Assembly: GCA_040755695.1 (NCBI GenBank)
Contig: JBFMAK010000002.1
Coordinates: 62,001-126,000, forward strand
Source of the DNA: Candidatus Diapherotrites archaeon
GTDB taxonomy: Archaea > Iainarchaeota > Iainarchaeia > Iainarchaeales > 1-14-0-10-31-34
Direction of reading: 5' to 3'
Length of the DNA stretch: 64,000 bases
Each line of letters starts with the position of its first letter. Position 1 is the stretch's first letter. Below are positions 39,418 through 41,063 of this stretch, piece after piece. Under the pieces are notes generated by a model. It saw nothing but the letters and a program-made list of their open reading frames with translations, searched no databases and was not told the origin of the DNA. The position numbers and the translations under genes were made by a program.

Positions 39418-40395
39418 ATGCTTGCTCTAGGAATTGAAAGCACAGCACATACATACTCAGTGGGGATAGTGGACAAAAAATGCAATGTGCTTGCAAACGA
39501 AAAAAAGAGTTATACATCAAAAGATGCAGGAATCCATCCAAGAGAGGCAGCAGATGCACACTACAGGAATGCACCTGAGCTAGTCACAGCAGCAATGCAG
39601 AAGGCAGGAATAGAATTCAATGAATTGGATTTAATTGCTTTCTCCCGCGGTCCAGGGCTAGGGCCATGCTTAAGGGTTGGGGCAGTAACAGCAAGAACAC
39701 TCGCACTTATACATAACCTCCCTTTGCTTGGGGTCAACCATTGCATTGCGCACATTGAAATTGGGAGAGAGAAATGCAAATGCAAAGACCCGATAATTGT
39801 TTATGCTTCTGGGGCAAATACCCAGATTACAGGCTATGAGTCAGGCTATTACAGGATTTACGGCGAAACATTAGACATTGGAATTGGAAACCTGCTTGAT
39901 GCTTCCGGAAGGGAATTGGGATTGGGTTTTCCTGCCGGGCCAATAATAGATGAAATGTATTTCAAGGCAAAAGAATTGGTTGAACTGCCTTATTCTGTGA
40001 AGGGAATGGATTTGGTTTTTTCAGGCCTGCTTACTGCTGCAGCACAAAAAATTGGAAGAGAAAAAAAAGAGGAATTGGCTTTCAGTTTAATGCATAATGC
40101 CTTTGCAATGCTCTCAGAGGTAGCAGAAAGGGCTTTGGCCCACACAGAAAAAAAGCAATTAATGCTTACTGGGGGGGTTGCAGCTTCAAAGGCATTGCAG
40201 GAAATGATGCAGAAAATGTGCAGTGCTAGAAAAGCAGAATTTTTTGTCTGCCCCAGAGAACTGGCCACAGACAATGCAGCAATGATTGCATGGCAGGGCC
40301 TGATTGAATTCAAGGCAGGCAACAAAATGAAAGTGCGGGAAAGCTACATAAGGCCTAAAGAGAGGACAGATCAAGTAAAGGTGAACTGGCGCTGA
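39418..40395 (+). CDS. kae1: KEOPS subunit Kae1 (tRNA t6A threonylcarbamoyltransferase)
   Basis: A 325-residue ASKHA-fold protein that transfers threonylcarbamoyl to A37. The metal-binding H-C-I-A-H-I-E (HxxxH) is at about residue 107. Other marks are G-I-E-S-T-A-H-T-Y-S-V-G-I-V at the start, S-R-G-P-G-L-G-P-C-L, Y-A-S-G-A-N-T-Q-I and L-T-G-G-V-A-A-S-K. Bud32 is encoded separately at 49434, unlike the fused Kae1-Bud32 of many Euryarchaeota. Confidence 0.95.
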   Translation: MLALGIESTAHTYSVGIVDKKCNVLANEKKSYTSKDAGIHPREAADAHYRNAPELVTAAMQKAGIEFNELDLIAFSRGPGLGPCLRVGAVTARTLALIHNLPLLGVNHCIAHIEIGREKCKCKDPIIVYASGANTQITGYESGYYRIYGETLDIGIGNLLDASGRELGLGFPAGPIIDEMYFKAKELVELPYSVKGMDLVFSGLLTAAAQKIGREKKEELAFSLMHNAFAMLSEVAERALAHTEKKQLMLTGGVAASKALQEMMQKMCSARKAEFFVCPRELATDNAAMIAWQGLIEFKAGNKMKVRESYIRPKERTDQVKVNWR

Positions 40396-40455: not shown

Positions 40456-40488
40456 CTTTTTATATGTGACCCTATTAAATCTTAATAG
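40456..40488 (+). promoter_or_regulatory. TATA box and palindrome upstream of the SWIB-like gene
   Basis: TTTTATAT (40458-40465) is a good TATA element. Just downstream is the perfect palindrome CTATTAA-ATC-TTAATAG (40472-40488), which would cover the expected start of transcription. A leader of about 50 bases follows, ending in the strong ribosome-binding site TAAGGAGG (40524-40531) before ATG 40540. Confidence 0.6.
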
Positions 40489-40539
40489 CAATTCTATATT
40501 ATCGTGTTTTTTTAATTGAATTGTAAGGAGGAATATTAA

Positions 40540-40692
40540 ATGGCAAAGAAAGCATTTGGTGGATATCACATCAGCTTTAAGGGATGCAAGGACTCAATGG
40601 AATCAGTCTTTGGTTCAGGCAATCTTGCTCCAAGCGAGATGACAAAAAAGCTTTGGGTTTACGTGAAGAGAAAGAAACTTTCAGGAAAGTAA
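40540..40692 (+). CDS. 50-residue SWIB/MDM2-like small basic protein
   Basis: The frame opens at ATG 40540, nine bases after TAAGGAGG, and encodes 50 residues. The second half, L-A-P-S-E-M-T-K-K-L-W-V-Y-V-K-R-K-K-L, matches the core of SWIB/MDM2 domains (typically L-[AST]-x-x-E-x-x-K-x-L-W-x-Y-I-K). The first half, K-K-A-F-G-G-Y-H-I-S-F-K-G-C, is unlike known SWIB proteins to my knowledge. It is a single-gene unit with its own TATA box, palindrome and terminator, suggesting high expression. A DNA- or chromatin-associated role is only a guess from SWIB biology. Its short length hides it from ordinary gene calling. Confidence 0.85.
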   Translation: MAKKAFGGYHISFKGCKDSMESVFGSGNLAPSEMTKKLWVYVKRKKLSGK

Positions 40693-40718
40693 ATTCTGAA
40701 AGGCAACTGGTTTTTTTT

Positions 40719-40749
40719 AGGAACTCTAATTTTTGGAGTTCTTTTTTCT
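40719..40749 (+). terminator. Hairpin plus T-rich terminator after the SWIB-like gene
   Basis: AGGAACTC (40719-40726) pairs with GAGTTCTT (40736-40743) with one G-T wobble and a 9-base loop, followed by TTTTTT and more T-rich sequence to about 40760. A further T run (40711-40718) precedes the stem. Archaeal termination mainly needs oligo-T, so the hairpin is a bonus. It fits a discrete monocistronic unit. Confidence 0.75.
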
Positions 40750-40847
40750 ATTTTTTTTATTCTAATTCAGGCGGGAAGGGATATTATTAAAAAATTTTGT
40801 GTTTCGAGCATAATTATTGATGGGAAAGTTTTGCAGAGGAAAGAAAA

Positions 40848-41063
40848 ATGAATGTAAGCTGCACTCACTGCGGGAAAAAATTCGAATTAGAACCAGAGAT
40901 ATATGAAGAAGGCGACACAGTGGAATGCCCTGAGTGCGGCACAGAGCTTTCGGTTGTAAAGAAAGGAAAAAAGATCACAGTAATAAAATCATTTGAAGAA
41001 GCCCTTCCTGAAGAGGACCTGGGCGAAGAAGAATTCGGCGAAGAATACCAGGGAACAGAATAA
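40848..41063 (+). CDS. LysW-like zinc-ribbon protein with acidic C-terminus
   Basis: A 71-residue protein with V-S-C-T-H-C-G-K-K and V-E-C-P-E-C-G-T-E-L, a two-knuckle zinc ribbon. The tail is very acidic (E-E-A-L-P-E-E-D-L-G-E-E-E-F-G-E-E). This is the layout of LysW, the amino-group carrier of archaeal lysine/arginine synthesis, whose C-terminus is E-D-W-G-E. Here the sequence ends in E-Y-Q-G-T-E. No lysX/argX-like ligase is nearby, so a carrier role is not supported by context. It could instead be a general zinc-ribbon protein. Confidence 0.7.
   Translation: MNVSCTHCGKKFELEPEIYEEGDTVECPECGTELSVVKKGKKITVIKSFEEALPEEDLGEEEFGEEYQGTE

Follow-up and report, generated by a model that had tools for sequence, protein, structure and literature searches.

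What kind of protein is encoded by a 50-codon gene of a Diapherotrites archaeon whose product resembles a SWIB domain, and what could it do in such a cell? SWIB domains have been listed in Chlamydiae, Verrucomicrobia, some Proteobacteria and eukaryotes, with a debated origin (PMC6426960, available text), have been described as rare in prokaryotes outside chlamydiae (PMC12445093, available text) and were reported to have moved between Patescibacteria (PMC12455944, available text). No archaeal or phage half-size SWIB is mentioned in the accessible parts of these three papers or of PMC10303687, and none, either archaeal or half-size, was described in the wider literature searched, which held little subscription content. 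The gene, here called half-SWIB, lies in the window (the whole 64-kb stretch of DNA that was analysed). An earlier note, made from the sequence of the window, had described it as a minimal SWIB gene with strong expression signals and a possible role as a nucleoid or transcription protein.

The gene and its locus

The half-SWIB gene is located at 40540..40692 on the forward strand (ATG at 40540, 50 codons, with the stop codon included in the range) and encodes the 50-residue protein MAKKAFGGYHISFKGCKDSMESVFGSGNLAPSEMTKKLWVYVKRKKLSGK, which was identical letter for letter to the translation in the earlier note (ORF 40540-40692, forward strand). A single copy was found in the genome (1.3 Mb, 99.85% complete). 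Homologues at E<1e-12 were detected in 27 of the 53 genomes of the order (its own included) and were matched to residue 49 or 50, and the stop codon followed within a few residues after the matched end in 27 of these 27; four weaker rows of the order (E 0.007-0.3) were left out of the count. An antisense or spurious ORF was dropped as an explanation because the sequence is conserved. The ORF is a real gene, and the stand-alone gene proposed by the earlier note was confirmed; related genomes have homologues with matching start and end.

Upstream on the same strand lies the TsaD/Kae1 gene (39418-40395; PF00814, E 1.9e-76), which ends 144 bases before half-SWIB. The same order was also seen in L183 and L187 of the same family, with one or two small ORFs in between. 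Downstream, also on the forward strand, a 71-residue zinc-ribbon protein (LysW-like, Zn_ribbon_4) is encoded at 40848-41063; a zinc-ribbon gene also follows half-SWIB in L183 and L192 (two other genomes of the same family), and within this family alone it may be a loosely linked operon partner.

The signals listed in the earlier note were all located on the forward strand, with differing weight. A TATA-like element (TTTTTATAT, 40457-40465) stands about 80 nt upstream of the start. A TATA-like 8-mer with at least 7 of 8 matches was present in 35 of the 37 loci of the order, and in 25 of them it lay 54-68 nt upstream of the start; since 7 of 8 matches were also reached in 67% of the trials with shuffled upstream DNA, only the clustered position is informative. 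The perfect inverted repeat CTATTAA-ATC-TTAATAG (7-bp arms, 40472-40488), near the expected transcription start, means little by itself because 25 repeats of its type were counted in the 64-kb window. The Shine-Dalgarno sequence (TAAGGAGG, 40524-40531) is separated from the ATG by eight bases. In the 64 kb, AAGGAGG was counted 12 times on the forward strand and twice on the reverse strand, and a Shine-Dalgarno-like motif was found in 36 of the 37 loci of the order. Behind the gene, a terminator-like hairpin with a T run is located at 40719-40743 (one found versus a mean of 0.3 in shuffles).

Relation to the SWIB domain

The sole Pfam match of the protein was SWIB (PF02201), with E 7.7e-4 and 19.6 bits versus the curated cut-off of 25. 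Residues 17-47 (40588..40680, forward strand) were aligned to profile positions 6-36 of 74, and the full domain of about 74 positions was not matched. The cut-off was passed in 7 of the 87 genomes of the phylum by genome search. Because both the score and the two-part domain that define the family fell short, half-SWIB is not, as judged from its sequence, a full member of PF02201. NCBIfam gave only weak matches, to models of SWIB-tailed topoisomerases, and no PHROGs family was matched by the window protein or three homologues.

Profile-profile comparison was done with alignment A1, which consists of 28 rows (the window protein and 27 of the 29 half-SWIB loci found in a scan of GTDB contigs; the duplicates L064 and L067 and four Opitutia hits, which are full SWIBs, were left out), and with 26 full bacterial SWIB domains, from which duplicates and the divergent L166, L167 and L172 had been removed. 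With hhalign, residues 18-48 of half-SWIB were aligned to the N-half of SWIB at Prob 97.8-98.0, and the C-half came as second choice at Prob 6-17% (6-24% for C-half matches overall). The score against the N-half was 58.2 (best of 200 column shuffles, 17.5), by which shared ancestry of half-SWIB and the SWIB N-half was shown at the level of profiles. The score against the C-half was 18.1, barely above the best of 200 column shuffles (17.8), and that of the N-half against the C-half of SWIB itself was 18.3, just above the best of 200 shuffles (16.2). A search with the profile against the PDB gave the N-half of UAF30 at E 0.0032, and, weakly, 1v31, with helix 2 in its N-half and the strand and helix 1 in its C-half.

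The SWIB core that the earlier note had seen in the second half of the protein is thus real (Pfam E 7.7e-4, hhalign Prob 98%), but the similarity spans residues 17-47 and not only the last 20, and the front half is therefore partly SWIB-like too. The view of a minimal SWIB, that is, a whole domain in shrunken form, did not hold, as only the first half (positions 6-36 of 74) was matched.

Half-SWIB and the members of PF02201 (stand-alone bacterial SWIB, UAF30, BAF60 and MDM2) have in common the core D..(h)..V.G...(h)..SE-M-T-K-K-(L/I)-W-x-(Y/F)-(V/I)-K and, as predicted for half-SWIB, the two-helix arrangement; the Opitutia SWIB proteins are, like half-SWIB, also small, basic and stand-alone and start with MAKK. 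In contrast to PF02201, the half-SWIB gene is without the C-terminal half and has a front of its own, FGGYxIxF, with a predicted beta-hairpin. Two of its invariant residues, F24 and M34, characterise the SWIB C-half, and W39, K37 and Y41 characterise the N-half. Over 27 aligned columns, the majority residue equalled that of the N-half only in 6, of the C-half only in 4, of both in 6 and of neither in 11. A single repeat, two copies of which take both places, would be expected to show such a mixed pattern. Since half-SWIB was aligned to the N-half and weakly to the C-half, and the two SWIB halves weakly to each other, it looks like a single repeat of the two-repeat SWIB fold, and a single repeat would most simply form a homodimer. 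Kussie et al. are said to have described in 1996 a pseudo-two-fold symmetry of the MDM2 fold. In the control genome of Methanocaldococcus jannaschii, a weak PF02201 match was seen at E<=0.05, below the cut-off.

Predicted structure

An AlphaFold2 model from the 28 natural sequences (pLDDT 83.7, pTM 0.61) predicted a compact unit of two strands (residues 10-13 and 16-19) and two helices (20-24 and 31-44). Foldseek against the PDB returned three matches at E<=10, among them MDM2 and MDMX at E 7.6 and 9.3 with TM 0.45 over 28-29 columns; weak as they are, these two matches would agree with half a SWIB fold and are not proof of it. In VIA-align of the model, no SWIB chain was recovered at Z>=2, and none of the 44 matches at E<=10 in the fold search of BFVD was informative (best E 2.3). 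A control model of full SWIB from 4 sequences was so poor (pLDDT 49.9) that it was kept out of the fold searches.

Distribution of the family

Besides the 29 half-SWIB loci, four full SWIB loci (Opitutia/Verrucomicrobia) were obtained in the scan of GTDB contigs. The record titles of the 29 loci read Aenigmatarchaeota, Micrarchaeota, Diapherotrites, Rokuibacteriota, Deltaproteobacteria and Acidobacteria. Such titles are not always right for metagenome bins, and the Acidobacteria-titled protein was identical to a Rokubacterial one. When whole phyla were searched with the A1 profile at E<=1e-3, matches were found in 61 of the 95 genomes in the phylum of a Rokubacterium (G088), 15 of the 95 having two half-SWIB genes, in 50 of the 156 in the phylum of an Aenigmatarchaeon, in 21 of the 245 in the phylum of a Micrarchaeon and in 30 of the 46 in the phylum of G097. 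In the latter phylum, 21 of the 30 have half forms and the other 9 gave only weak matches to residues 17-50, as a full SWIB does; weaker matches of this kind to residues 17-50 occurred in 15 of the 46 genomes, and 6 had both kinds. The second gene of G093 is a full SWIB (PF02201 positions 1-74).

Five viral scans yielded copies on five IMG/VR contigs, two of which are close relatives, and no match to the window protein at E<=0.1 was obtained among INPHARED phages or PLSDB plasmids. The family is confined neither to this order nor to archaea: it is present in other DPANN phyla, in Rokubacteria and in phages. On sequence grounds, half-SWIB can be regarded as a previously undescribed and widespread half-size relative of SWIB.

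Protein length was 48-58 residues in 125 of 141 loci (a few places being counted twice in this set: L065/L212, L069/L219, L073/L211, L082/L257 and L083/L250), and the others had an extended front, or a start that in some of them was chosen wrongly. Across the 28 rows of A1, from archaea and bacteria, 13 columns were invariant. In a tree of 134 different sequences, most bacterial forms stood apart from the archaeal ones (support 96/86), and the copies of phages L143 and L144 stood next to a second copy from Rokubacteria (96/76). L229, which is the second copy of G087, was grouped with the phage copies. As the tree has only 53 columns, its deep forks are weak and the direction of transfer is not settled.

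Gene neighbourhoods

The neighbourhood survey covered 742 neighbour ORFs at 91 loci (37 of its own order, 18 other archaeal, 31 bacterial and 5 viral). For Rokubacteria the naive ORF caller took wrong frames, which was mended in part by third-position GC. No telling neighbour cluster common to archaeal and bacterial hosts was found among these 742 ORFs, and a conserved neighbourhood was accordingly given up as the main guide to function; in the hosts the gene is mostly solitary. By eye, an HU-like ORF was seen on the strand opposite to the Rokubacterial half-SWIB, at a distance of one or two genes (L065, 6856-7122; L073, 6876-7142; L220, 6274-6543).

In phages L143 and L144, half-SWIB stands between the genes of a gp32 ssDNA-binding protein (PF08804) and RecA/UvsX (PF00154, phrog_97), and the surroundings in L143 also include DNA polymerase B, a UvsY-like protein (phrog_231) and a 5'-3' exonuclease. 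At L146/L237 a UvsX-like gene ends 1.7 kb upstream of half-SWIB, and the genes nearby are those of dCTP deaminase, DNA polymerase, UvsX-like, ThyX, half-SWIB, SbcD and SbcC. At L142/L239 an SbcC-like gene ends about 5.8 kb upstream, and L145 has two half-SWIB copies 4 kb apart, without recombination-type neighbours. One of the copies on this 188-kb viral contig (4812-5183) carries about 60 extra residues at its front (MIEGVDVNGKKVKGRIYVV...) and a Lys-rich tail; the other copy is downstream of it.

In archaea, RPA adjoins half-SWIB, with RadA within 2 kb, at 3 of 105 loci (L087, L180 and L189; two lineages), versus about 0.15 RPA adjacencies estimated by chance in 105 loci on the assumption of about 1,400 genes per genome; since RPA and RadA adjoin each other, they make up a single signal. 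L180 and L189 belong to one genus and have RPA/RadA on the same strand, and L087 bears a Micrarchaeota title and has them on the opposite strand. At the locus in the window neither RPA nor RadA lies within 5 kb, and the single RPA gene of the genome is far from half-SWIB. The archaeal link to RPA/RadA, in two lineages, is suggestive.

Function

The sole functional clue found points to modules of DNA replication and recombination. It is tentatively proposed, with a confidence just short of an even chance, that half-SWIB is a DNA-associated accessory protein of ssDNA handling and recombination, or of the nucleoid, that works as a SWIB-like dimer. Each protein (mostly 48-58 residues, basic) would equal one SWIB/MDM2 repeat; two copies may associate, each supplying the half that the other lacks, and the dimer may bind either DNA itself or a short motif in a partner that is bound to DNA. 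It would then act as an accessory factor beside the ssDNA-binding protein and the recombinase, or more generally in the nucleoid. The limits of this reading are the usually solitary gene in the hosts, the small number of viral contigs (five, with two close relatives among them), the weak fold matches and the scores for the C-half and the repeat, which are barely above those of shuffles. Its fullest form, a living one-repeat SWIB/MDM2 protein that is a homodimer, a model of a duplication-fusion origin and a partner of the ssDNA-binding protein and the RecA-family recombinase in DPANN archaea, Rokubacteria and phages, is considered rather doubtful.

A role as a nucleoid or transcription protein, as suggested in the earlier note, is possible. 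If half-SWIB were, like stand-alone bacterial SWIB proteins, a general nucleoid-associated (chromatin-like) protein of small size and basic charge, perhaps abundant and bound to duplex DNA with no special tie to recombination, then its pI of about 10 (9.4-10.6 in 28 of the 28 A1 proteins), the Lys/Ala/Pro tails of about 20-25 residues in two archaeal members (L193 and L270), the longer Lys-rich flank of the viral L145 copy and the mostly solitary gene with its own expression signals would be readily accounted for, and in Waddlia a SWIB protein is bound all along the genome (PMC6426960, available text). Lys-rich tails, however, can arise in many gene families, and the phage copies lie inside replication/recombination modules; such a general role is held to be unlikely, though less so than the two readings that follow.

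In one of these, half-SWIB is a protein-binding adaptor that, in the manner of MDM2 and without contact to DNA, grips a short helical motif of a partner from transcription, the ribosome or repair. An amphipathic helix is bound by the SWIB domain of MDM2 (PMC10303687, available text), and the invariant face of F24, M34 and W39 is hydrophobic, but without dimerisation the cleft may be missing from a half domain, and no partner gene is conserved across hosts; the adaptor is held to be improbable. Much further down in probability is the view that this is a SWIB gene in decay or cut short, which persists by chance and has no meaning as a repeat or a dimer. A truncation would agree with the far better match to the N-half than to the C-half; against it, archaeal and bacterial phyla have kept both the sequence and the length (13 invariant columns and the family-specific FGGYxIxF front), and half and full forms coexist as separate genes (both in 6 genomes of the G097 phylum, and in G093).

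Among the nearest known systems are the chlamydial ones. In Waddlia, the stand-alone SWIB protein Wcw_0377 was found to bind heparin, and its ChIP-seq peaks were spread over the entire genome (PMC6426960, available text); as described in the accessible parts of PMC6426960 and PMC12445093, Wcw_0377 and the SWIB-tailed TopA share with the proposed role a DNA-associated SWIB, in Wcw_0377 also as a small stand-alone protein, but theirs are full domains of about 79 residues versus the 50 of half-SWIB. With the T4-like UvsY mediators, half-SWIB shares the position of a small phage protein encoded beside gp32 and UvsX (L143 and L144); it has no sequence relation to UvsY and did not match the phrog_231 profile, and it is not a replacement of UvsY in L143 because a separate UvsY-like gene (phrog_231) is present there.

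With a conserved half-size SWIB in DPANN archaea, phages and several groups of bacteria, the fold would gain a one-repeat relative and, with it, a testable path of origin for SWIB/MDM2; lineages with little-studied recombination machinery would gain a candidate DNA-handling factor. As the protein has only 50 residues, synthesis, NMR and binding tests are easy. Among the other neighbours, a SepF-like gene was noticed by eye just upstream of half-SWIB in L071 and four other loci, several of them of Aenigmatarchaeota.
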